From: Ianthella basta
Lineage: Eukaryota > Porifera > Demospongiae > Verongiida > Ianthellidae
Reading direction: 5' to 3'
Assembly (NCBI GenBank): GCA_964019415.1
Contig: OZ025870.1
Coordinates: forward strand, 4,924,415 to 4,988,414
DNA length: 64,000 nt
A program made the translations under genes and the position numbers. Numbering within the stretch: the stretch's first letter is position 1; the number at the start of each line of letters is the position of its first letter. Under the pieces are notes generated by a model. That model saw nothing but the letters and a program-made list of their open reading frames with translations, was not told the DNA's origin and ran no database searches. Shown piece by piece: positions 4,298 to 62,334 of the stretch.

Positions 4298-4819
4298 TTA
4301 ATGAATAACTACAACAGAGTCCACAATATGAGAGCAATCTGAATGCTTAAGTGTACGTAGCACACACATGATACTGTAGCGGGCCACATCTTGGCCATGG
4401 AGAATTTCGAAGTCCCTCTTCTGCTGTCCATGGTCAGATCCACTCTCAGCTGAAGGTATAGGCGATGGAGCTCGAGCTTGCACACTCTCGTCACTGGAGA
4501 CAGTCAAAGCTACCGCAGTATCCGTTGTTGTTAGCGCGGCCTCGATCTGCTCACCAAGCTCCTTCTGCTTCGGCAAGCCGCTTTCTTTCAAGATGGTATA
4601 AAATTCCTGCAGCGTCATCTCCGTGCTACTCTGGTAGAGATGTTCTGCCAACACGGCATTCGCGTCTGTGTCGCAGTCAGCTCTTCGGATCTTCTGCAAG
4701 CAGTCATAGTTGATCACTTTATACTGGAACAACTTCCCACTCAAAGCCTTAGCGCTGGCGCTACTTTCAATGAGTGTGAACAGAGCGCGTACGGCACCCT
4801 GTGCTTTGTCTTGTGACAT
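4298..4819 (-). CDS. CARD-like protein, second type, copy 1 (173 aa)
   Basis: A single-exon frame starting MSQDKAQGAVRALFTLIESS. Residues about 5-95 match the CARD-like domain of the plus-strand family (KALSGKLFQYKVINYDCLQK, LQEFYTILKESGLPKQKELG) but with type-specific changes, and the tail differs (SPIPSAESGSDHGQQKRD). It converges tail-to-tail on the pseudogene at 3595-4037. Its paralogue at 19085-19606 reads a different C-terminus because of a short insertion, so the C-terminus may not be under constraint. The CARD assignment is by pattern only. Confidence 0.6.
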   Translation of the reverse strand: MSQDKAQGAVRALFTLIESSASAKALSGKLFQYKVINYDCLQKIRRADCDTDANAVLAEHLYQSSTEMTLQEFYTILKESGLPKQKELGEQIEAALTTTDTAVALTVSSDESVQARAPSPIPSAESGSDHGQQKRDFEILHGQDVARYSIMCVLRTLKHSDCSHIVDSVVVIH

Positions 4820-4959
4820 TGCGCCGATCCCAGCTAGGGGCGGTAGTCCGGCCGATGAAAAACTTCTCCCAGCTAGTCGCAGTAGCCGTATGCAAAAAAC
4901 TGTCGCCTAAAATCCGGAGGAATCCGGTACTGTTACCCCAAATATGGGGTAAATGGCCA

Positions 4960-5471: not shown

Positions 5472-6310
5472 TCAGATCAGCAGCAGAACAAGAGCTTACA
5501 AGAGTGAACAAATAATTATATAGATAAATGCATTAAATTCACTTTCTGCATCAATAAAAGTTTGTACATATATGCATGTCATAATCACATATAAATTTTA
5601 TATTAATATTAATTTTGTAACTATACGTACGCATACAAATTATGTACACTTGAAATACCTACACTTCAATTCATTATGCATTATTGTTGACATGCATCTA
5701 CCATCAATCACGTTATGATGATTATTCATACAGTAATTTGCTTTACTTTGCATGATCATGTGTAATATGATATGACCACTTTAAGCTAGAGATGGTCTAC
5801 AGTGATGGTCATAAAGTTGTGTCATACCCTGCACATGTTGCACATCATGCAAGATCCACAAATAACATACCATTAATTAGTATTGTCTCTTTAGTTTACA
5901 GTTTGGCGGCTTCCTCGTACATTGTCTCAATGCACTCTGCATACTTCTGAGAAATGACCTTGCGCTTCATCTTCAGAGTGGGTGTCAGTGTGTTGGTGAA
6001 GGGGCTGAGGTCTTCAGGGAGGATTGCAAATTTCTATGAGTGGAAAAAGGAGGGCAGGGAGGGAGTACAGAGTCACTATTTACTATGACACAACTGTCAA
6101 GCTATTGTAAAATATTACAATTTGCTATGTTGTGATACACATGTCAAATTGTACATACAGTGCGGGCCATGTCATGTTAATGCAATAGGTTAGGCTCTGG
6201 ATTGACCATATGGCAAAGAGAGACATCCAACAAGTACTTGTGATTAGAGTTAGCTCTCCAAGTGAAAGACTTGATTCAACCAAATTCTGTTTCAGAATGT
6301 ACTCTTATAT

Positions 6311-19084: not shown

Positions 19085-19606
19085 CTACAACAGAGTCCAC
19101 AATATGAGAGCAATCTGAATGCTTAAGTGTACGTAGCACACACATGATACTGTAGCGGGCCACATCTTGGCCATGGGTTGGCCATGGAGAATTTCAATGT
19201 CCCTCTTCTGCTGCTCATGGTCAGATCCACTCTCTGCTGAAGGTCTAGGCGATGGAGCTCGAGCGTGGGCACTCTCGTCACTGGAGACAGTCAAAGCTAC
19301 CTCAGTATCCGTAGCTGTTAGCGCGGCCTCGATCTGCTCACCAAGCTCCTTCTGCTTCGGCAAGCCGCTTTCTTTCAAGATGGTATAAAATTCCTGCAGC
19401 GTCTTCTCCGTGCTACTCTGGTAGAGATGTTCCGTCAACACGGCATTCGCGTCTGTGTCGCAGTCAGCTCTTCGGATCTTCTGTACACAGTCATAGTCGA
19501 TCACTTTATTCTGGAACAACTTCCCACTCAAAGCCTTAGCGCTTGCGCTACTTTCAATGAGTGTGAACAGAGCGCGTACGGCACCCTGTGCTTTGTCTTG
19601 TGACAT
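19085..19606 (-). CDS. CARD-like protein, second type, copy 2 (173 aa)
   Basis: Starts MSQDKAQGAVRALFTLIESS. The frame stays open upstream to 19837 without a better start. The domain closely matches 4298-4819. After about residue 140 a tandem repeat of TTGGCCATGG shifts the frame, giving a hydrophobic end (CYVHLSIQIALILWTLL) unlike copy 1. It converges on the plus-strand copy at 17385-17828, with the 970-bp transposon between. Confidence 0.6.
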   Translation of the reverse strand: MSQDKAQGAVRALFTLIESSASAKALSGKLFQNKVIDYDCVQKIRRADCDTDANAVLTEHLYQSSTEKTLQEFYTILKESGLPKQKELGEQIEAALTATDTEVALTVSSDESAHARAPSPRPSAESGSDHEQQKRDIEILHGQPMAKMWPATVSCVCYVHLSIQIALILWTLL

Positions 19607-20157
19607 TGCGCCGATCCCAGGTAGTGGCGGTAGTCCGGTCGATGAAAAACTTCTCTCAGCTATTCCCAGTAGCCGTATGCGCATTACTAAAACTGTCCAC
19701 GGATCGCCGTAGGTTATGTGACAGTCACATGAACCAATCGGTAGGCAGAGGAATGCGATGACGTAACTAACTCCCCCAAAAATGGCTTCCAACGATTCAT
19801 AGACGAACGCCCCTGCCAGGACACTTGAAGACTCCACAGATTACAATGAAAATTTCGTAGAGTACCCCAAGTACAGAGTGATGGTGCGTTGCAACTTCAC
19901 TGACTATCTGTCGTGCTACAAATTTTAACTCCTGCAAACCCGAACAGTAGCTATAGGCCTTCGAATCAGTGTCGCCTTTCCTTACGTAAGTCTATCACTC
20001 CTTCTTGGAGGTAACGGAAGGACTGCGAGAGAGCCCTAGGCTATGCTTCCCGATGTTCCCGAGGAAGCTGCCTGTCTGTGCTGGCCACAAGTCTGCAGTG
20101 CAACCTATTTATGACGTCACTGCATAAGACTAATAGTACTACGCAGTATGTTGCACA

Positions 20158-23481: not shown

Positions 23482-23615
23482 GAAAATTCGAACACTTAGT
23501 GAACGAAATAGGGAGCAGAATAGTACTCACTAAAGCTGGATCTAGGGCGTCTCCTAGTCCTACTGTTGCTGCCGAAACATCACTGTGTATAGTTAGGTAG
23601 CTTGCCAAAGGAGCA

Positions 23616-24155
23616 ATGACTCAGCTACTAGACAACCACATAGAAGGCATCACCGGTGCTGTGCGACAAAATCCAAGAGTACGGACGACTACAAGTGCAG
23701 ATCGAGAGCCGTGTATGATGCCACAGGACATCGCTCAGAAGACGGTGCGTGCGCTGTTCTCAGAGATTGAATGTACCGGCAGCGCTAAGACTCTGAGCGG
23801 CAAGCTGTTCCAGGGTTTGGTGATTGTCTATGAGTGTTTGCAGAAGATCAGGAGAGCTGAGTGCGACACAGAAGCGAACGCCGTGTTGGCGGAACATCTC
23901 TACGAGACTAGCACGGAGAAGACGCTGCAGGAGTTTGCTCGGAATCTGAAAGTGAGCGGCCTGCCGAAGCAGAAAGTTCTTGGTGAGCAGATCGAGGCCG
24001 TGCTGACACGTACAGCGGCAGCAGCTAATGCTAACTCTAGATCCACCTCTAGATCTTCTGAGGCATTTTCTGCTACCAGTCCATCGCGTGCATCTACATC
24101 AGTAGAAGATGAATCAGACGAAGAGATGGAGACGGACGCCGGCCTTGAGGCGTGA
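23616..24155 (+). CDS. CARD-like protein (179 aa), intact, long-tail form
   Basis: Starts MTQLLDNHIEGITGAVRQNP; the common start (MEG) is IEG here, so the frame uses an upstream ATG. Domain residues about 45-135 follow the family (KTLSGKLFQGLVIVYECLQK, LYETSTEKTLQEFARNLKVS). The tail is a Ser-rich linker (NANSRSTSRSSEAFSATSPS) and DESDEEMETDAGLEA. No ACSBG exon 1 is seen just upstream; instead there is an E-box palindrome. Confidence 0.7.
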   Translation: MTQLLDNHIEGITGAVRQNPRVRTTTSADREPCMMPQDIAQKTVRALFSEIECTGSAKTLSGKLFQGLVIVYECLQKIRRAECDTEANAVLAEHLYETSTEKTLQEFARNLKVSGLPKQKVLGEQIEAVLTRTAAAANANSRSTSRSSEAFSATSPSRASTSVEDESDEEMETDAGLEA

Positions 24156-26716: not shown

Positions 26717-26990
26717 CTAAGAAAAAGGAAGGGCAGGGAGGGAGTACAGAGTCACTACGTACTATGGCACAACTGTCAAGCTATTGTAAAATATTACAAT
26801 TTGCTATGTTGTGATACACATGTCAAATTGTACATACAGTGCGGGCCATGTCATGTTAATGCAATAGGTTAGGCTCTGGATTGACCATATGGCAAAGAGA
26901 GACATCCAACAAGTACTTGTGATTAGAGTTAGCTCTCCCAGTGAAAGACTTGATTCAATCAAATTCTGTTTCAGAATGTACTCTTATATG

Positions 26991-34990: not shown

Positions 34991-35654
34991 CATCCTACAT
35001 CGCTCTGCACTTGTAGTCGGCCGCACTCTTGGATTTTGTCGCACTGCACCGGTGTTGCCTTCCATGCGCAGAGTTGTTACGTACGTTGCTACTAAGCCAA
35101 GGGGTAAGCTTATAATATGCACTTGTAGTGCCAGCTGGTAGTGACGTCATGTTCACGGACTGACTGACTACCCGTGGATGCCGGTCGATCAGCTAGTCGA
35201 TCAGCTGGTAGTGATGTCATGCACGGACTGAATACTGGCTATATTCGATCAGCTAGTCGATCAGCTGGTAGTGATGTCATGCACGGACTGAACACTCAGT
35301 CTGGCTATATTCGATCAGCTAGTCGATTAGCTGGTAGTGATGTCATGCACGGACTGAACACTCAGTCTGGCTAAATTCGATATCAGCTAGTCGATTAGCT
35401 GGTAGTGATGTCATGGACGGATGCATGACGTCACTACCAGCTGATCGACTAGCTGATCGACCGGCATCCACGGGTAGTCAGTCAGTCCGTGAACATGACG
35501 TCACTACCAGCTGGCACTACAAGTGCATATTATAAGCTTACCCCTTGGCTTAGTAGCAACGTACGTAACAACTCTGCGCATGGAAGGCAACACCGGTGCA
35601 GTGCGACAAAATCCAAGAGTGCGGCCGACTACAAGTGCAGAGCGATGTAGGATG
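34991..35654. repeat. Large palindrome with 233-bp arms duplicating a CARD gene start
   Basis: Arms 34991-35223 and 35422-35654 are near-exact inverted copies around a 198-bp spacer. The right arm contains the TATAAGC promoter and the first about 24 codons of the CARD-like gene at 35580; the left arm contains the same piece on the minus strand. Confidence 0.85.
35174..35414 (+). repeat. About 66-bp tandem array (CGATCAGCTAGTCGATCAGC)
   Basis: Units contain CGATCAGCTAGTCGATCAGC, TGGTAGTGATGTCATGCACG and ACTGAACACTCAGTCTGGC. The last three carry CGATTAGC or ATATCAG variants. Each unit has its own small palindrome. The array fills the spacer of the large palindrome. Confidence 0.8.
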
Positions 35655-36101
35655 TCGCCAGACATCGCTCAGAAGACAGTGCGTGCGCTGTTCTCAGAGA
35701 TCGAATGTAACGGGAGCGCTAAGATTCAGAGCGGTAAGCTGTTCCAGTGTTTGGTGATCGACTATGAGCACTTACAGAAGATCCGAAGAGCTGAGTGCAA
35801 CACAGAAGCGAATGCCGTGTTGGCGGAACATCTCTATGAGACTAGCACGGAGAAGACACTGCAGGAGTTTGCTCGCATTCTGAAAGAGAGCGGCCTGCCG
35901 AAGCAGAAGGTTCTTGGTGAGCAGATGGAGGCCGTGCTGACACGTACAACAGCAGATACTGCTAACTCTACATCTTCTGAGGCAGTTTCGACTGATTCTC
36001 GAGACGAGCCTCCTCAAGCGACCAACCCATCGCGTACATCTTCATCAGTAGAATATGAATCGGACGAGGATATGGAGACGGACACCGGCCTCGAGGCGTG
36101 A
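35580..36101 (+). CDS. CARD-like protein (173 aa), intact
   Basis: ATG at 35580 (MEGNTGAVRQNPRVRPTTSA) matches the family start; an open frame continues upstream without ATG. Domain as in 17385, with substitutions (AKIQSGKLFQ, YEHLQK). The linker is longer (SSEAVSTDSRDEPPQATNPS) and the tail is YESDEDMETDTGLEA. AATAAA occurs about 20 bp past the stop (GAGCAATAAACC). The promoter lies inside the large palindrome. Confidence 0.7.
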   Translation: MEGNTGAVRQNPRVRPTTSAERCRMSPDIAQKTVRALFSEIECNGSAKIQSGKLFQCLVIDYEHLQKIRRAECNTEANAVLAEHLYETSTEKTLQEFARILKESGLPKQKVLGEQMEAVLTRTTADTANSTSSEAVSTDSRDEPPQATNPSRTSSSVEYESDEDMETDTGLEA

Positions 36102-38279: not shown

Positions 38280-38288
38280 GTGAAAGAC
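38280..38288. repeat. 9-bp target-site duplication, left copy
   Basis: GTGAAAGAC, repeated at 44806-44814. The uninterrupted site reads GTGAAAGACTTGATTCAA at 6260-6277 and 26941. Confidence 0.85.
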
Positions 38289-38416
38289 TAGTCTCGTCCC
38301 CAGCCCCACTTCCGCAAAAATGGCTGCCGCCCGTGAAAAGTGGGTCTGGCACATTTCGCCGCATTTCTTGGTCTTGCTGACTCAGCAATACCAGGATCCT
38401 GGAGAGCCAATCAGAT
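38289..38416 (+). repeat. Left terminal inverted repeat (128 bp)
   Basis: Starts TAGTCTCGTCCCCAGCCCC and ends GAGAGCCAATCAGAT. Holds CTTGCTGACTCAGCAA, a small palindrome that could be a protein-binding subsite. Confidence 0.9.
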
Positions 38417-38659
38417 TACAGGCTGGATTATATTGTAGTCTGCTCGAGGTATGAAATGCAATGGGAACGATAATATTGTAGCTCTCGCGCATATTATGGT
38501 ATACGCTTAAAACCTTAGCTAGCGCTCTTCGGATTGCAGCTGTCGTCGAATTACGTATCGATACCTTTCCGAATACGTATTGGGCACCTCCCGTTCCCTA
38601 TAATTTTCGGATCCGGATCCATAAGGATGTTTTGGCGCGCTTAGGTACCACGTGTGGCT

Positions 38660-41600
38660 ATGCAAGTGTTGTGTTGCATATGTAAGAATGCGCTGCAGGG
38701 TCCCTCCTGTAGGAGGATAATCAGCCCGGTAAATGCCAGTAACAGCAAAGTCAGGGGATTCTTTCTAAGAAACATTTGCGCCCCTAGTTATCGCTTCAGC
38801 GAGGATTCGCAGTACTATGTTTGCCGGTTAACATGCTTCAGGAGCCTTGAGAAAGCTGCAAAGCTGCAGGATGATCTCGACTCTCTTGTAGCCGAACTTC
38901 GCATGCACTGGGAAAACTCTTCTGAGAGAGAAGAGCCAAAGGAGGTGCGACAGCAATGATAAATATACTTGCTATACGTAATGTACATTAAAATGTTATT
39001 GGCAGCAGGGATTATATGTTATGCATAATTTATACTTCCCCAGGAATTGATGGCCTTGGCCATGGATGCTAATGCTGTATGCCCAATTTCAAGCCCCAAC
39101 ACAGATCAACCCAGCCCAGCTATAAATTTAACACCTTGTAAGCGCTCTTGTGCAAGTGATGACCAACCCATCTGTAGTCAAGCTGCATCAATTCATCCAC
39201 AGACATGTGGTACAACTGCACCCAAGAAACGCAAAACCACTCCAACTCGCATATCTACACCCTCCAGTGTACTTCGGGTTTGTACTCTGCATTGCCAACT
39301 ACAATTCAACTGCTTGTTACATGCAGTTTATCATTGTGATTCCATGCATGTTATGCCTTGAATACATGTAGGTTTCTCATGTGCGAGGACGAAAGCTCAT
39401 CAGACGTTATCAAGTTCATTCACCTTACAAAAGAGTGGTTAAGACTATGCGATACAACAAAGCGAGTTACACTGCACGTAAACTTCTTGCATCAGCCACA
39501 CTCTGTGATGCAACCATCACTGAAATTGCACACACAGTCAAACGTGAGTGTATACAGCTCTGCAAAACAGTGCCTTCACCATCTAACTTCTGTGTGAAAA
39601 CTACAAGTGACCTATTGAAATTCGACTGGGAACCATTGCTGCAAGAGCTTGAAACATCAGTACCAGTACTCACATCCATTTTGAAAGCAGCTGCAGAAGG
39701 ATCAGGTCACAGAAAACTGGACCCTGCAGGCTTAGTTATGGCGGCATCTATTCTCCTAAAGAGTCGCTGCCAGCGTATGTGCAAAGTACAGATGGTGGTG
39801 TCATCTCTACTTTATGCTGGTCATGCCTCTAAGAAGGTCGGTGCTAATAATTTATACCATGTATGCACTATAATAGCTTAATATCATGGTAGACTAAGTC
39901 CATAAACTGTTACTGTTACAGTATAGTTCTCTTATTTTTTAAATTTATACTTGCACACTGACATGACGTTTGAGAGCTTTATTTGATTTTGTATTACTTG
40001 ATGCAGGTGTATAAAAGGTTGCAAAAGCTGGGGGTCAGCTTGTCACATACTGCCACACTCCTTACTGTAAAGCGAATGGGTATCAATCATGATAAGTTGG
40101 TGCTAGATTGGAAGCAGCACTTAAGTGGCAGTACTAGTGCAGCCAACCCTGGTGCAAATGTGATGGAGGGGACAGGGGGAGACAGTAACGATGATCCAGA
40201 AAAGGAGGATCACAGTGATGATGATTCAGAAGTAGTTCCTGAAGCTAGTAAGGAATGTGAACTCCCAACTGATAGGACTGTAAGTCTTATTGGTGACAAC
40301 CTTGACAAAGGAATTAAACCCAGGGATATGACGATCAGCAATCAGGTGCAATCACTGCATCTATTCCATTCCTGTGCTGCTGTCAGCCGAGTAAAAACAC
40401 TGCATCTGGATGATGCAACACCTGCAGGAGATCTAGAAGATGTCCCAATCTCAGCTTTTTTGCCTTCAATCACAGATTGTGCAGCCATTCGAGACAATTA
40501 CGTAGTTCTTGCAGCTAGAGTCATTGTGAAACATTTAACTTGTTTTTCGTCTCTTCACACCTGTGTACCAGAGCACATACAACACGAATACAGTGCTGCT
40601 ATGAAGGAAAAGAGTGTAGTGGTATGTGGTAATATATACATGAATATACCTGCATGCATGCATGTTTGCATGTAATGTATATATGCATGCCTATGATGGT
40701 GTATGTATATTTGTCTCTATAATTAATATAGATCCCATTGGGAGTTACTCCCAAAAATGAGAATGTTAGGGAAGAAATGATTGAAATCATGGAAGAGCAT
40801 CAGAAGTATGTGCCCACATCACAAGGTATGTCATGACATGTATATTGTCATGCATAATATTGGTACAATCATGTATAATTGCAAACTAATAATACATAAG
40901 TATGTATTCTGATGCACAATCAGATGGTCACAGATTCAAGAGTTTGATGTTGTTTGGGGACCAGCTCACTGTAGAAAGAGCGAGAGCAGGCAAAAAGGCA
41001 AGAATAGCCTCAGATACTGCAGAGGAGGCTCTTGACGGCCTTCAACCAGCTGCTTCTGACTGGCATGCAGAGGCCAATTTCTTGCAGGTAAGCATGCACA
41101 TGGAATAGGGGAAATAAACATTCTTTTACTCTAGTCTATACAGTTATGTACAGATTTTATAGTTGTGATGTTGTATAAAACACTTTTAATCATGCTTGCA
41201 TGCAGACTATCTTTTCAAGACTATACAAGGTCGGATCGAGTTGTCAGGAGGGTACACTTTTACAATTGAGAAATCTCATAAACCGCCGCAATGTACGTGG
41301 AGATACCTCAGGAAGGTTCAATGAGACAATTGACTTTTTTCAACTTGTAGTTGAATGCCACATCCTGGCAGCAGCCATGCACTTCTTCTCAATGCAAAGT
41401 CTGGATGATGTCCCATCCACCAATGCGTTGCCTGACATGGACAGAAAGAAATCTGATGAGAAGTGGGCAATTCTTAAAGAACGCATAACCGAGCTGGTCA
41501 ATCGGTATGTGTTGGTGGATAAAGTTGCAAACATAAATAGCCTGAGTAAGAGTGGTGATCAAACGCCTGCCCATGCTGCACATCATCAGCAGTTAAATCC

Positions 41601-42434
41601 ACATGCTACAAGGATAGCCGCTGAACACTGCTATACATTGTCACACCATGTTGATGCTGGATCAAGCAGTACTAATGCAGAGAAACCAAAACGTCAATTT
41701 CCATCTTCATTCCGCAAAATTGCTGATGAAGAAGTTACACCATACGAAGTTCAGAAATATTCACCTGATGGTGTCTTCAATTATGCCAGTGCAGTCTTAA
41801 ATGATGGACTGCTTCTCCTAGAGCTTCGTGACGCTATCCACGAAGGGGACGGTCCAAGGATCATCCGTTGCTGGAAGTTCATGCTATTGCATTGGCGGCA
41901 TGCAGGTCATACAAAGTATGCACATGTGGTAATACAGCTTGTTTCTGCAATACAGGCAACTGCCCCACCGCGAATTGCTCATGAACTTGTGTGGTGCCGG
42001 ATAGTTAACACTCGTGGTGGTGCTGGAAACAATATTCCAGCTGACCTGTATTTTGAGCATTTGAACAGAACTCTCAAGGACTACCTAAATGGAATAGGAC
42101 CTAACATTTCAAGCAATGCCATTGTACAAACAAGCAAGTCCCTGAGATGCCTTCTTGATGTGACTGCAAACTTTGACAGGATTTGCAACATTGGGCAAAC
42201 ATCCATACACCACACTATAGCCCTTCATCAAAGGAGGACAGAGACAAGATCATCACTCAACTCACTACTGAATCTAGAGTGTTTGACTATATTCCCGGCC
42301 GCTTCCACCACACATTCAAGGGAATCAAGCCTCACGTTTCATCACACATAGACGTAGAAAAGCTGACACAGTGGATTCAAACGACAAAAGAAAGCATTGC
42401 TAAGCACTATAAATTGAAACAAGTATTACAATAA
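38660..42434 (+). CDS. DUF6589-type transposase, seven exons, one frameshift
   Basis: Exons 38660-38944, 39044-39277, 39372-39836, 40007-40621, 40732-40825, 40924-41087 and 41206-42434 splice in phase at GT-AG sites, for about 1025 residues. Exon 1 has a cysteine-rich N-terminal domain (VLCCICKNAL ... YYVCRLTCFRSLEKA). Exon 3 holds RYNKASYTARKLLASATLCD; exon 4 an acidic stretch then SLIGDNLDKGIKPRDM. Exon 6 has LMLFGDQLTVERARAGKKAR and exon 7 DWHAE...LQLRNLINRRNV, FFQLVVECHILAAAM and PADLYFEHLNRTLKDYLNG. The D of GDNLD, the D of GDQLT and the E of YFEHLN are candidate catalytic acids (inference). In exon 7 the reading frame changes between about 42183 and 42215; PGRFHHTF and the end are in the second frame, so this copy may be inactive, or there may be an assembly error. 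Confidence 0.8.
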
Positions 42435-42576
42435 TGCCAGTAATTGCTTTAATTGACTTAATTTTCATACATGCATGCACATATAACAATTACTATAATC
42501 ATGCAATGTATTATATATATACATGATGGCATTGCTGTATAAATGTTAATTTATCCAAGTCTTTATAAAATCAGTT

Positions 42577-44609
42577 TCATGTATGTTTTCTGTTATACGT
42601 AGTAGAAAACTCTGAGACAATCTTGAAAACAACAGTTGCATATTCTGGAGACGTAATACCAAAGCTTTGCACATCTTCAACAGTCTTGATCATCAAACAG
42701 TTCTTGACAATCAGTTTAATAGTTTTGTTTGTCAGACCAGACAAAATACCAGCACCAACAAGAGCACAGGAAGGATCTGTACTAAGAAGATCTGCTCTCA
42801 ATTTGAAAAGTTTTTCCTGAAGTTGTTGACGTTGATCAATGGACAGAACATTGGGGCACTCTGTGTTGCTTTCAGCATCGCTAAGGTGTTCAAAGATCTC
42901 AATTTCCTTCTTTGAAAGGGGGGCATCTACATCACACGATTCACATGTACATTGCTCAGCACATACATCACAACACATGTGCATATAGACAGGAGTGGCC
43001 ACACTGCCAGATTCATTAAACTGTGCCATAAGCTGTTGACGTCTACATCGCATGGTCATACAATAGCTGCGCATGCTCTCCTGCATGTGTCTGTCTTGAA
43101 CATTTTCTGTTTTGTTGCAATATAATACTGCAGTTGTAGCTTTTCCATCTCTTCCTCCCCGGCCAGTTTCTTGTACATAACACTCAATGTCACTTGGAGC
43201 CCCCCAGTGTATAACTGTGTGAATGTTTGGAACATCTATTCCCATTGCAAATGCAACAGTAGAAATGACAATTCGTACAGCTCCATCAGGCTTCGTAAAT
43301 GACTCCACTATTCTCTTCTTGACACTTTCAGATGTGCACGCATCAAACTTTTCACAGGTGCGTATTTTAGAGCCGTACAACTCTACTTCTGGATGAGTAC
43401 TCATAGGAAACAAGGACTTCTTCTGTGCTAGCTCCAGTGCCACCATTTCGTAAATCTGGCATGTATCATTGTACGTTCTGCAAAAGCAGAGGCACTTTTT
43501 GCAGCTTCTGCTACTCACTAGGTCACTTATGAAAGGACTAAATATGGCAATTGGGTTAGGTGGCTTTGGAAGTACAGCATAGAAGATGTTTAACTGATTT
43601 GGATCCCTACTGAGTATATGACAGGCTCTCATCTCCAGACTGGACAAAACCACTTCACGAGTACTCACATTGGCAGTTGCTGTCAAAGCCATCACATTAG
43701 TGTTCCTTGGCAACAATGAACGAATCTCACCAATAGAGGCAAAGTCAGTTCGGAATTGCTTTCCCCTGCAAAATGCATATATACACAATAAATCAATGGT
43801 TCTTACATGACATGCATGCATTTAAATGCAGTCACTGCACGTTTTAGTCTTATGTTACATCATCAGTCAAGGAGAAAGCTCTGGCACTTGGCTTCATTCT
43901 GTTCCTAACATTCTCAGAGGAGTATAGCTACATGTATTCACACCTCATGCAGAATTAGTGCTACCATGGAACAGACTAGCTAGCCATACAAGATAAGCGT
44001 CAGACCCTTCTCCCAACCTGATGATGTCTTAGTGCAAAAGTCTACAAACTACATGAGCATGAAATACATTACATACCATTTCTCCACCAGGTGAGCCTCA
44101 TCTACAGCCAAACAGACCATGTTTTCTTTGTAGCATGAAGATTTCAACATTTCTCTCCAACATGGGACAGTTAAAGGAGACTCTGGGCTGAAATACACTA
44201 GCTGCATATCACCATTCAACACACTGTCATAAACTGCACGCTCTTCCTGCCCACTGCCAACAAAGGCTGCCTTCATTCCCTTTGATGTAAACTTGGTGAC
44301 TTGATCCAGCATCAGGGCGTTGAGTGGTGAAACAACTATACAGATTGAATGGTGGCCTGTGCCTTTAACCTCGCGAAGTTTGTCGAACACTAAAGGAGTA
44401 CAAGCAAAACAAAGGCTCTTGCCACTTCCAGTAGGTAGCGAAATGAAGGTATCTCGCCCACTGACGAATTGGAGAACTGCTTCCACTTGACCAGGCCTAG
44501 GCCTGTCGTACCCAAGCTCCCGTACGCTCTCGAAAACTGCCTGCTGGATAAAAGACACGTCCACCGTGATTCCCAGACGAGGAACTAAAACAGCGCCAAT
44601 GCCATCCAT
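42577..44609 (-). CDS. RecQ-like superfamily 2 helicase, two exons, 573 aa
   Basis: Exons 44609-44077 and 43765-42577 join at TG|GTATGT and GCAG|GGGAAAG, making the Trp of DEAHLVEKWGKQFRTDF. Helicase motifs in order: RPGQVEAV (motif 0), LPTGSGKSLCF (I), DEAH (II), VMALTATA (III), CLCFCRTY (IV), VISTVAFAMGIDVPNIHTVI (V), QETGRGGRDG (VI). A cysteine cluster after motif VI (CCDVCAEQCTCESC) fits the RecQ zinc-binding part. No HRDC or winged-helix domain is obvious. ATP-driven 3'-5' unwinding is the family activity. Lying inside the transposon, it is probably an element gene acting in excision or repair. The frame is intact. Confidence 0.85.
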
Positions 44610-44677
44610 TTTACGCGGGTGTTCACATTACAATTATCATTATTATAGCGATATTATTTTTAATATATTTTCTAGCT

Positions 44678-44805
44678 ATCTGATTGGCTCTCCAGGATCC
44701 TGGTATTGCTGAGTCAGCAAGACCAAGAAATGCGGCGAAATGTGCCAGACCCACTTTTCGCGGGCGGCAGCCATTTTTGCGGAAGTGGGGCTGGGGACGA
44801 GACTA
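44678..44805 (-). repeat. Right terminal inverted repeat (128 bp)
   Basis: Inverse of 38289-38416 with one difference; followed by the second GTGAAAGAC at 44806-44814. Confidence 0.9.
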
Positions 44806-44814
44806 GTGAAAGAC
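44806..44814. repeat. 9-bp target-site duplication, right copy
   Basis: GTGAAAGAC followed by TTGATTCAACC, continuing the host intron interrupted at 38288. Confidence 0.85.
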
Positions 44815-44908: not shown

Positions 44909-47900
44909 CGTCACGAACATGGCGGACTCGAACAGTCCAGTCGCAAGAAGATCCCTCAGAAGGTAGTCAGTTTCGCTCGAAAGAGGTTCATCCTGGGACT
45001 GCGAGCCTGGTATGGTACGTGGGTACCACTGGTAACCGAGTTCGGAAGATCTCAGAAGCGAGTCGAGTGAAATGGAAGACCGACGGAGGTGTGAACAGCA
45101 GTCGGCAAACAGAGCGAGCCGAAGGGGAGGCGCGTCCCCATCGACCATCGCAAGAGGCAACCAACGCACTACACCGGTCCGCCAGGCTACCTCAAGCCCT
45201 GGCTCGGTTCTGGCGGGACACCGACAGGCGGAAGAGGGACGCGTCTCCCCAACGGCTGACGGGCGGAAGAGGGAATCATCCCCAACGGCCTCCCGCTACC
45301 TCCTGAGAGCCACTCAGGCCCGGACTTGCCGACGGGTGACACGGGCAGGGCCTGGCGTGAGGTTAGCCACCTCACCCGCGAAGGCAGAGGCTTACAATAC
45401 GAGAGCTAGGCTCGGGGCTTCGCGCAGAAGCAGAAACGGGGACAAGGAAGGTAACGGAAGAAGATCGACGCGTACCATGAAATCTACAATGGACCAACAG
45501 GGAGAAGAGAGACGACCACCACCCGCACATCGACCTAAGCGCATTGCAGTCTCGGGTAGACTGTTGAGTACGCGAAAGACAGACAGATTTGGCACTTGGA
45601 ACGTACGCACACTTCGTGGTGTAGGAAAGATGGAGCAGCTGGCAATGGAGATGGAACGATACGGGATAGCTGTACTTGCTGTGACAGAGACGCAACTAAC
45701 AGGTGAAGGTGAGATGGTGTTAGATGAAGGTAGGGGATACAAGATGCTGTTTGCTGGGAGAAAAGATGGAAGGGCTATAGAAGGAGTGGGGCTTGCGCTG
45801 ACTCCACAGGCGCGGGCATCATTGAGACACTACCAACCAGTATCCTCACGAATTCTAGTAGCGGAACTCCTCACTAAAATGGGTCCATTGTCTATAGTAG
45901 TTGTGTATGCTCCTACTAATCAGAGCAGTGTAGAGGACAAGGAGCAGTTTTACTCCGACCTGGACACTGTAATGACCAGAACTGGTGGGCTTACCATAGT
46001 GATGGGGGACTTTAATGCAACCCTTGGGGAGAGTGTACTGGGAGTGATAGGGAACCATGGCTTAAGCAGGCAGACAAGTGACAATGGAGAGAGGCTCATG
46101 TCATTTGCTAGTGGGAATGGACTTTGCATTGTCAATACACTCTTCCCCCATAAGCAGATTCACCAGGCAACGTGGTACCCCCCAGATGCCAGAGCACAAC
46201 CAAGCATGAAAGACTTTGTGTTAGTGAAACAGAGACTACGTCCATCAGTGCTTGACACGCGTGTCTACAGAGGAGCAGATCTTGATAGTGATCACCGCTT
46301 GGTAGTAGTGTCACTACGTCCCAAGTTGGTCAAGAAGGCAAAACAACAGCAGAGAAAAGGGATTGATACGGAACTACTCCAACAAAGAGAGAAGCGGGCA
46401 GAGTACCTGCAGTCCATCAGAAGCAGTTTCAATCACAGAAAAAGACATGGAAACGTGGAGGAGAGATGGAATGAGATGAAACTGGCCATCGTCCAGTCAG
46501 CTGAGCAGCACCTACACAGGAAGAAAAAAGCGCAGAAAGCCTGGATCACAGAGAAGACGCTGAACCTAGTGGAGGAGAAGAGGAGGGCATTCGCAAGATG
46601 GCAGGAACAACGAACGGACCCAGAGAAACGGAAAGAGTATGTGGACTTGTGCAAGAAAGTGAGAAGGGCAGTGAAAGGGGACAAAGAGAAATGGCTGGAT
46701 GGAATGATGGGAGACATGGAAGAGGACATGAGGCACAACAGGCAGGGGAGATTCTACAAAAAAATGAAGTGGCTGATGGGTAGCAGGGTGGCACCATTGG
46801 ACAGAATCCTAGATGAAGCTGGCCAACCAGTGCAACAGGCAGAGGAAAAACTATCCCGTTGGAGAAGGCATTTCCAGAAAGTACTGAATGTGGATAGTAC
46901 TGTGAAGGAGGAAGCACTGGCAAACTTGGAGGACCACTCTCATGTGGAGACACCAGAAGTGAACAGGGAAGAAGTTGAGCGAGCAGTAAAGAGACTACAG
47001 AACAAGAAGGCAGCAGGTGAGGACAGAATTGTAGCTGAGCTAGTGAAGAATGGTGGTGAAGCAATGATTGACTGGCTGATGGAGTTGTTGCAAGAAGTGT
47101 GGAAGACAAGACAAGTGCCACAGGAGTGGAAGAATGCCACTCTGGTTCCACTCCACAAGAAGAAAGATAGACGAATATGTGACAACTACCGAGGAGTATC
47201 TCTGCTGAGCGTACCAGGGAAAGTACTGACACTGATCCTTCTGGAGAGACTACAAGACATCATTGAGCCCCAACTGATGGAAGCCCAATGTGGCTTCAGG
47301 GAGGGGCGTGGCACAATCGATCAGATCTGGGTAGCAAGACAGGTGGTGGAGAGAGCTGCGGAATACCGCACTCCTGTGATGATGTGCTTTGTGGACCTCA
47401 CAAAGGCATATGATTCAGTGGATCGCAGTGCCCTGATGGCTGTGCTGAAGTCACATGGTGTGCCCTGGCAACTTGTGGACATCATTCAGGGGCTCTACTC
47501 TGGGACTTGGTGTCAGGTCAGAACAACGGATGGCATGTCGGAGGCCTTTGAAGTGAGATCTGGAGTCAGACAAGGCTGTGTCCTGTCTCCCCTACTATTT
47601 AACTGTTTTATGGACAGGATCCTGAGGGAGATGACAGAGACACTCGGCGGGGGACTGCACATTGACTATGCCATCGGGGGAGGTCTGTTCCTCTCGTATC
47701 GTGACAAGACATCAGCCTCCAGCTGCGTCCAAGATTTGTTGTATGCTGATGATGTGACGTTGATTGCTGAGACTAGGAGGGAGCTACAACACATGATTAC
47801 CACCCTGGACAAGGCCTGTGACCGATGGGGCATGCGTATCAATGGAGAGAAGACCAAAATTCTCACATTGGGAACGACAGAAGATCAGTCACCACTCAGA

Positions 47901-48583
47901 CTCAGAGGCCAGATGCTAGAGGAAGTGGAGTCCTTCTCCTACCTTGGGAGTGAAGTGGGTCAAACAACTAAGGTGGAGAGAGAGGTGACAGTGAGATTAA
48001 AGAAGGCCGGCACAGTATACCAGATGTGGAGATGGAAGGTATTTCGAAGCCGCAATCTCAGCAAAACCACCAAGCTCCGTGCATTCCGCACCCTGGTTAT
48101 GTCAATTCTCCTGTATGGGGCAGAGACATGGCCAGCCACACAACAGGATATCAGGAAGCTGAAGACCTTCCACATGAGATGTCTCCGGGATATCCTGGGT
48201 ATCACTTTGTGGGACAGGCGACGGAACACAGATATCCTAGAGGAGACTGGAGAATTGCCAATTGAGGAGCAGTTAAGACAGAAACGATTACAATGGTTTG
48301 GCCATGTACAGAGAATGTCTGATGAGCGTCCCCAGAAACAACTTATGAAATGTCGACCTCGAGGGAAGAAGAGACCACCGGGTGGAGCCCCACTGAGATG
48401 GGTTGATGTTGTCAGCAAAGATTTGACAAAACTGACCAACTGGCAAGAAGTGGTGAAGGACAGAGCTGCATGGCGAGCCTTCATCCACCGCCCCTAATCT
48501 GCAAACGTGCTGTAGTATCTTGAGCCTAGATCCCGCCCAACATCCTTGATGGATAAGGAGTACAGAGGAGGAGGAGGAGGAGG

Positions 48584-48586: not shown

Positions 48587-48674
<88 letters not shown>
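48587..48674. repeat. (TG)n tract, right part, split by the LINE
   Basis: Directly follows the (AGG)n LINE end; continues to CACTTATGCTGCATGGATCC as in sister units. Confidence 0.9.
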
Positions 48675-51533: not shown

Positions 51534-51766
51534 TTTTTATGAATCAGCTGACTAGAATGATTATAATTATATCACTTATACCACGGCGCTTCGGTGTATA
51601 ACTAATACATATACCATACGTCGGTAAGTTGGAATACCCTGTACGTCGGAGTAGCTAGACCCCACTGAAAACTGAACACTGAAAAAGCCATCAGTATCTG
51701 TGCGCGTCTGTTCACAGCCATCAGTGTTCTCAATCTATGCCGATACTGCTAATACTGAACAACCAC
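51534..51766. promoter_or_regulatory. Divergent spacer between ACSBG exon 1 and CARD gene
   Basis: 233 bp, different in sequence from the 3421 and 17204 spacers (no CACGTG; has TACACCGAAGCGCCG-type inverse CG motifs near 51580). Promoter role inferred from head-to-head layout. Confidence 0.35.
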
Positions 51767-52261
51767 ATGGAAGGCATCACCGCTGCAGTGCGACAAAATC
51801 CAAGAGTACGGACCACTACAAGTGCAGAGACATGTAGGATGCCACAAGACATCGCTCAGAAGACAGTGCGTGCACTGTTCTCAGATATCGAATGTAACGG
51901 CAGCGCTAAGACACTGAGCGGTAAGCTGTTCCAAGGTTTGGTGATTGACTATGAGTGTTTACAGAAGATCCGAAGAGCTGACTGCGACACAGAAGCGAAT
52001 GCCGTGTTGGCGGAATATCTCTACGAGACTAGCACGGAGAAGACACTGCAGGAGTTTGCTCGCATTCTGAAAGAGAGCGGCCTGCCGAAGCAGAAGGCTC
52101 CTGGTGAGCAGATGGAGGCCATGCTGACACGTACAGCAGCAGGTACCGCTAACTCTACATCTTCGGAGGCAGTTTCTACTAACAGTCCATCGCGTACATC
52201 TTCATCAGTAGAAGGTGAATCGGACGAGGAGATGGAGACGGACGCCGGCCTCGAGGCGTGA
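51767..52261 (+). CDS. CARD-like protein (164-174 aa), intact
   Basis: Family start MEGITAAVRQNPRVRTTTSA at 51767; an upstream in-frame ATG at 51737 would add ten residues (MPILLILNNH). The domain is intact with a few changes (AEYLYE, KQKAPGEQ). Tail EGESDEEMETDAGLEA. Confidence 0.7.
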   Translation: MEGITAAVRQNPRVRTTTSAETCRMPQDIAQKTVRALFSDIECNGSAKTLSGKLFQGLVIDYECLQKIRRADCDTEANAVLAEYLYETSTEKTLQEFARILKESGLPKQKAPGEQMEAMLTRTAAGTANSTSSEAVSTNSPSRTSSSVEGESDEEMETDAGLEA

Positions 52262-59920: not shown

Positions 59921-59958
59921 TAGTCTCGTTCCCAGCCCACTTCTGGCAGCCATTTTAT
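59921..59958 (+). mobile_element. Solo terminus resembling the Academ-like inverted repeat
   Basis: TAGTCTCGTTCCCAGCCCAC, then CTTCTGGCAGCCATTTT. The first 18 bases match the 38289 terminus at 17. No partner end found within a few kb, so it is a relic or the end of a related short element. Confidence 0.45.
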
Positions 59959-60163
59959 ACATGGCCCGTTACCATTGGTTACCTAATATCCCTTTGTGGG
60001 GGTGCACGTGACTTTTGTTGCAAAGATTGCACAATCTCCTGTACCATAAACGGTTATATATCCAGTGGGCGCGGACTATGAACAGATGATGCTCATACGG
60101 ACCACAACAATTGCAGAGCTTCTCCCCCTTGCCTTAGAAGCAACGTACGTAACAACTCTGCAC

Positions 60164-60691
60164 ATGGAAGGCAACACCGCCGCAGTGCGACAAAATCCAA
60201 TAGTACGGACCACTACAAGTGCAGAGACATGTAGGATGTCACAGGGCATCGCTCAGAAGACGGTGCGTGCACTGTTCTCAGAGATCGAATGGAACGGCAG
60301 CGCTAAGACTCTGAGCGGTAAGCTGTTCCAGGGTTTGGTGATTGACTATGAGTGCTTACAGAAGATCCGAAAAGCTGACTGCGACACAGAAGCGAATGCC
60401 GTGTTGGCGGAATATCTCTACGAAACTAGCACGGTGAAGACACTGCAGGAGTTTGCTCGCATTCTGAAAGAGAGCGGCCTGCCGAAGCAGAAGGTTCTTG
60501 GTGAGCAGATGGAGGCCGTGCTGACACGTACAACAGCAGCTACTGCTAACTCTACATCTTCTGAGGCAGTTTCGACTGATTCTCGAGACGAGCCTCCTCA
60601 AGCGACCAGTCCATCGCGTACATATTCATCAGTAGAAGATGAATCGGACGAGGATATGGAGACGGACACCGGCCTCGATCGCGAGGCGTGA
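60164..60691 (+). CDS. CARD-like protein (175 aa), intact
   Basis: Family start MEGNTAAVRQNPIVRTTTSA at 60164; an upstream in-frame ATG at 60065 would add 33 residues. Domain intact (IEWNGSAKTLSGKLFQGLVI, AEYLYETSTVKTLQEF). Closest to the 35580 copy in linker (SRDEPPQATSPSRT) and 3' flank, including the 27-bp inverted repeat. AATAAA lies 20 bp past the stop. Confidence 0.7.
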   Translation: MEGNTAAVRQNPIVRTTTSAETCRMSQGIAQKTVRALFSEIEWNGSAKTLSGKLFQGLVIDYECLQKIRKADCDTEANAVLAEYLYETSTVKTLQEFARILKESGLPKQKVLGEQMEAVLTRTTAATANSTSSEAVSTDSRDEPPQATSPSRTYSSVEDESDEDMETDTGLDREA

Positions 60692-62056: not shown

Positions 62057-62334
62057 CTAAGGAAAAAGGAGGGCAGGGAGGGAGTACAGAGTCACTATTT
62101 ACTATGACACAACTGTCAAGCTATTGTAAAATATTACAATTTGCTATGTTGTGATACACATGTCAAATTGTACATACAGTGTGGGCCATGTCATGTTAAT
62201 GCAATAGGTTAGGCTCTGGGTCGACTATATGGCAAAGAGAGACATCCAACAAGTACTTGTGATTAGAGTTAGCTCTCCCAGTGAAAAACTTGATTCAACC
62301 AAATTCTGTTTCAGAATGTACTCTTATATGGTAT

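Follow-up and report, generated by a model that had tools for sequence, protein, structure and literature searches.

DNA transposons of the AcademH kind end in inverted repeats, Kolobok elements duplicate a TTAA target, and Helitrons carry a helicase and have neither terminal inverted repeats nor a target duplication. Target duplications measure 9 or 10 bp for AcademH and 3 or 4 bp for AcademX of the same superfamily, a difference that the AcademH author suggested to go with the presence of a helicase in the former and a nuclease in the latter (PMC10045372). A RecQ helicase in Academ was on record by 2013, with reference to Kapitonov et al. (PMC3627910), AcademH was reportedly named by Kojima in 2020 (Mob DNA 11:15), and RecQ helicases are also carried by KolobokH elements of fungi and by the rhodophyte Kolobok-1_CCri, in the latter case on the complementary strand (PMC9587614). 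Here, we analysed a 64,000-nucleotide stretch of the genome of the sponge Ianthella basta (contig OZ025870.1, positions 4,924,415 to 4,988,414; hereafter, the window) and in it a 6517-bp element (38289–44805) that encodes a protein of the Pfam family DUF6589 together with a RecQ-like helicase. The element is very probably an AcademH-type DNA transposon that works by the mechanism proposed below. It is assigned as a putative new AcademH member by its helicase, duplication and domain content. It shares with AcademH a RecQ-like helicase inside the element, a duplication within the range of 9–10 bp and inverted-repeat ends; among the features compared no difference was found, and gene order here varies between convergent and tandem.

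Both ends of the element are exact. The size of about 6.5 kb, the terminal positions, the 128-bp terminal inverted repeats with a single mismatch between them and the exact 9-bp target duplication (GTGAAAGAC) that the original prediction had described were all confirmed (Table 1). The DNA that flanks the element is a local repeat, and its joined flanks (151 bases) have 15 matches in the genome, all on contig C3. Two of them correspond to the flanks of the element itself, two are only partial, at 55 and 70 bases, and one spans bases 1–146 at 86% identity. The remaining ten, empty target paralogues that span at least bases 1–143 at 95–97%, include three inside the window. Each of these three has a single copy of the 9-mer, altered at one position in the third, which is direct evidence of an insertion with a 9-bp duplication. 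Unoccupied copies also exist for the joined flanks of the element L012, at all 40 scored places, each covering at least bases 8–118 of 120, and for those of the short element L056, with a best match of 96% over bases 17–99 of 101. The window element is adjoined by a LINE-like retrotransposon (45036–48497, + strand) with a 1153-aa open frame that contains Exo_endo_phos and RVT_1 domains, past which the local repeat unit picks up again near 48590. Further along the window, a 24-base stretch (59921–59943) matches the terminal repeat's outer end at 91.7% and is perhaps a remnant of another element.

Two genes, the transposase on the + strand and the helicase on the − strand, converge within the element. 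The helicase is encoded by two exons with an open frame of 573 aa that contains the motifs GSGKS, DEAH, TATA and GRGGRDG and a Cys-rich stretch, and its DEAD and Helicase_C domains are encoded between the terminal repeats. The protein scores 247.2 bits against the NCBI RecQ family TIGR00614 (cut-off 219.8), in agreement with the intact RecQ-like helicase that had been predicted, and among solved structures its best matches are chains of RecQ, BLM and WRN. The seven-exon DUF6589 gene, likewise anticipated, has GT-AG borders throughout, and residues 479–955 of its product match DUF6589 (PF20231, model positions 12–410 of 410, E 4.2e-55). No nuclease domain was found at E ≤ 0.01 in the two gene-model proteins, whose matches are limited to DUF6589, DEAD, Helicase_C and, below threshold, ResIII.

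The association of the two genes extends across the genome. Searches with transposase exon 7 gave 55 matches at 39 DUF6589 loci, and those with helicase exon 2 gave 75 matches at 64 loci (matches were merged into loci on 3 kb, and pairing was defined by the nearest helicase match within 6 kb of an exon-7 locus). A helicase match accompanies 30 of the 39 DUF6589 loci, compared to a chance expectation of about 0.16; the paired-locus counts include degenerate loci and copies of one family. The layout is convergent at 24 paired loci, tandem with the helicase downstream at three, tandem with the helicase upstream at three and divergent at none, and one of the helicase-upstream cases (C2:5124358) consists of weak fragments 4.9 kb apart. 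In this genome, the earlier expectation that DUF6589 and RecQ-like genes are transposon pairs is thus borne out.

Both proteins have diverged in parallel. Across 11 families, in which the transposases differ at 34–68% and the helicases at 37–71% of compared positions, the pairwise distances of the two proteins are correlated (r 0.58; L009, L037 and L029 omitted as near copies), with three of 5000 label permutations giving a value as high. L045 and M44 (the name for the joined L044 and L049), L046 and L048, and L026 and L033 group as sisters in both trees (support at least 0.957). The transposase tree also pairs L039 with L040 (0.996), and the helicase tree puts both in one group with L022 (0.988), with no resolution inside it. 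Gene order is convergent in L045 and L046, tandem with the helicase first in M44 and tandem with the helicase last in L048. As L045 and M44, and likewise L046 and L048, are sisters for both proteins yet differ in layout, the order appears to have switched at least twice, and the most parsimonious account has one gene inverted within the element in two lineages, with the partners retained. On balance, we lean towards an obligate machine of two proteins whose genes are freely rearranged within the element, with at least two such switches and no repeated captures. These switches of gene order with a constant partner would be the sole, modestly fresh point.

Exact 9-bp duplications flank 15 of the 19 elements with both ends read, a set drawn from the examined loci rather than from all loci: the window element, L009, L012, the outer and inner elements of L045, L046, L047, M44, the joined L060 and L048, a 415-bp element in L044, and L054–L058. 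The remainder comprises L061, whose duplication is 8 bp exact, or 9 bp with one end base shared, L005 and L006, in which 8 of 9 duplication bases match and which seem to be copies of a single duplicated segment, and L059, which has no target duplication. Outside the 19 are L003, L004, L007, L010 and L011 (one end read), L043 (truncated), and L001, L002 and L008, which are ends of the window and C6 copies. Six families (window, L045, L046, L047, M44 and L048) have in common an outer TAGTCTCG, a CCCAG motif and an inner GGTCTGG, and their transposases mostly differ at 48–65% of compared positions (34% for L046 versus L048). The same termini are found on short derivatives of 619–645 bp, five of six examined with exact 9-bp duplications; these are too short for the helicase, which is therefore not needed in cis, and suggest that both proteins can act in trans.

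At L045:975–8482, an element lies inside another element's terminal repeat, and its duplication (GGTCTGGCG) equals the conserved inner motif of the repeat, either through self-targeting or by chance. The 415-bp short element (L044:2180–2594) has AcademH-like ends and the duplication CCCCCTGCA, and lies near a full-length tandem-order element. L012 (803–8728, 7.9 kb) shares its ends with the window family and is flanked by an exact 9-bp duplication; it has no transposase match and a helicase remnant of only 35 aa.

The description of the window element as complete did not hold. Compared to both sister copies, L009 and L043, its transposase has two additional bases (42216–42217) where the DUF6589 match ends, and the shifted frame loses a C-terminal stretch that other families conserve, so that this copy may be unable to move itself. 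L009 on contig C6 is 99.3% and 98.9% identical to it over two aligned pieces, with the same termini, its own 9-bp duplication (CTCCTGCCG, on the matching strand), about 340 bp more within the helicase intron and a premature stop in exon 4 of the transposase; L043, the third copy of the family, is truncated. Neither of the two full-length copies, the window copy and L009, has an undamaged transposase. Long open frames across the DUF6589 domain are present in other families of this genome, and these might be a source of transposase for the window family. The window copy is probably a fairly recent insertion with a now damaged transposase. Between it and L009, the transposase differs at 15 codons with a change of amino acid (including the L009 stop) and at five silent ones, and the helicase at one of each; the contrast in base differences (20 versus 2, Fisher p 0.006) comes from a single copy pair and carries no claim of selection.

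In the mechanism that we propose, the DUF6589 protein would be the transposase and would bind the long terminal inverted repeats (TAGTCTCG, CCCAG and inner GGTCTGG), excise the element and insert it into a target whose two strands are cut 9 bases apart, a spacing that follows from the 9-bp duplication left by repair. The RecQ-like helicase would be the co-inherited second part of the machine, most likely unwinding the nicked transposon ends, or single-stranded gaps at the donor and target, such that cleavage, joining or repair is completed. A helicase acting on ends or gaps made by the transposase would fit the suggestion of the AcademH author on helicase versus nuclease (PMC10045372). We infer the chemistry of DUF6589, the step of the helicase and a cut-and-paste rather than a copying route.

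Several observations weigh against the AcademH assignment and this mechanism. Under the 6-kb rule, no partner was assigned to 9 of the 39 DUF6589 loci or to 34 of the 64 helicase loci, and helicases without flanking inverted repeats had been named in the original prediction as evidence that would speak against it. Of five unpaired helicase loci examined, the best-scoring one, on contig C19 (L061), does lie within 85-bp terminal repeats, in an element whose transposase is truncated with its last part lost, and the other four, scored on identity alone (25–34%), are by sequence probably RecQ genes of the cell or helicases of distant kinship. The two trees disagree on L022, which goes with the window family for the transposase (0.915) and with L039 for the helicase (0.12), of which it retains a 232-aa fragment. 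In the helicase tree, cellular RecQ fragments are not separated from the element helicases; with the candidates L050–L053 as outgroup, three of the four fall on a very long branch beside the window helicase and the fourth elsewhere with support of 0.08, so that the tree does not show a single capture of the helicase. An AlphaFold model of a related DUF6589 domain (query L033:1264–2544, 17-row alignment), which is helical, without strands and of low confidence (mean pLDDT 63.5, pTM 0.62), had no match in the PDB at E ≤ 0.001 and so gives no support for an RNase H-like fold. Excision footprints, for which no search was made, are not among the observations.

One alternative is a separate DUF6589 superfamily that acquired its own RecQ helicase and only looks like AcademH; RecQ helicases do occur in fungal KolobokH and rhodophyte Kolobok elements (PMC9587614). 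The original prediction had pointed to the helicase-bearing Academ lineage as the closest known type; the RecQ helicase, the 9-bp duplication and the absence of a nuclease domain match in the two proteins agree with that lead, but the Kolobok cases show that RecQ is not limited to Academ. A separate superfamily is nevertheless quite unlikely, given that a 9-bp duplication combined with a RecQ helicase is on record for AcademH (PMC10045372, PMC3627910). It is similarly improbable that the helicase was picked up by chance as a passenger and plays no role in transposition. The derivatives of 619–645 bp described above cannot hold a helicase, but they are explained by supply in trans; a passenger would more likely have been lost than retained at 30 of 39 DUF6589 loci and in parallel divergence with the transposase across the 11 families.

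An element of the KolobokH, Helitron or AcademX type is hardly conceivable, because the empty sites fix the ends and the 9-bp duplication and long inverted repeats found there speak against all three. Helitrons have a helicase too, but their repeat-free ends do not match the window element, nor do the TTAA targets of Kolobok elements, which belong to another transposase superfamily. The DDD/E transposons KolobokH and Kolobok-1_CCri do share a RecQ helicase with our element (PMC9587614), and AcademX, although of the same superfamily as AcademH, is described with duplications of 3–4 bp and a nuclease instead of a helicase (PMC10045372), in contrast to the 9 bp seen here. We therefore retain the assignment to AcademH. 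DUF6589 was not met in the literature searched, an absence that does not show the link to be unknown, and a literature search on Academ with XPG and transposase found no paper.

Table 1 Coordinates of the features identified in the window
Feature	Position	Strand	Remarks
Left target duplication	38280..38288		9 bp, GTGAAAGAC
Left terminal inverted repeat	38289..38416	+	128 bp, starts TAGTCTCGTCCCC
Transposase exon 1	38660..38944	+	
Transposase exon 2	39044..39277	+	
Transposase exon 3	39372..39836	+	
Transposase exon 4	40007..40621	+	
Transposase exon 5	40732..40825	+	
Transposase exon 6	40924..41087	+	contains GDQLT (DUF6589)
Transposase exon 7	41206..42434	+	remaining DUF6589 and C-terminal tail; in the window copy the shifted frame ends at 42351
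Helicase exon 2 with stop	42577..43765	-	Helicase_C, GRGGRDG, Cys-rich stretch
Helicase exon 1	44077..44609	-	GSGKS, DEAH
Right terminal inverted repeat	44678..44805	-	128 bp
Right target duplication	44806..44814		9 bp, GTGAAAGAC
Unoccupied target paralogue	6141..6300	+	98.1% to joined flanks; 9-mer once
Unoccupied target paralogue	26820..26979	+	98.1% to joined flanks; 9-mer once
Unoccupied target paralogue	62160..62319	+	96.9% to joined flanks; 9-mer once, one change
Similar ORF	4298..4906	-	
Similar ORF	19085..19840	-	
Similar ORF	23601..24155	+	
Similar ORF	35499..36101	+	
Similar ORF	51683..52261	+	
Similar ORF	60050..60691	+	

Apart from the transposon, the window contains six similar open reading frames (ORFs) of 184–251 aa in a local multi-copy segment, with no Pfam match above the cut-off. 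Judged by eye, they look like a small gene family, possibly death-fold-like.

In this genome, the Pfam family DUF6589, listed as of unknown function, is tied to mobile elements with a RecQ partner, and DUF6589 and RecQ-like genes in such genomes should consequently be checked for transposon ends before they are counted as host genes. The link between DUF6589 and AcademH may help annotators in doing so. Further, the retained pair makes a role of the helicase in eukaryotic DNA transposition testable, with natural families, short non-autonomous derivatives and exact ends at hand.

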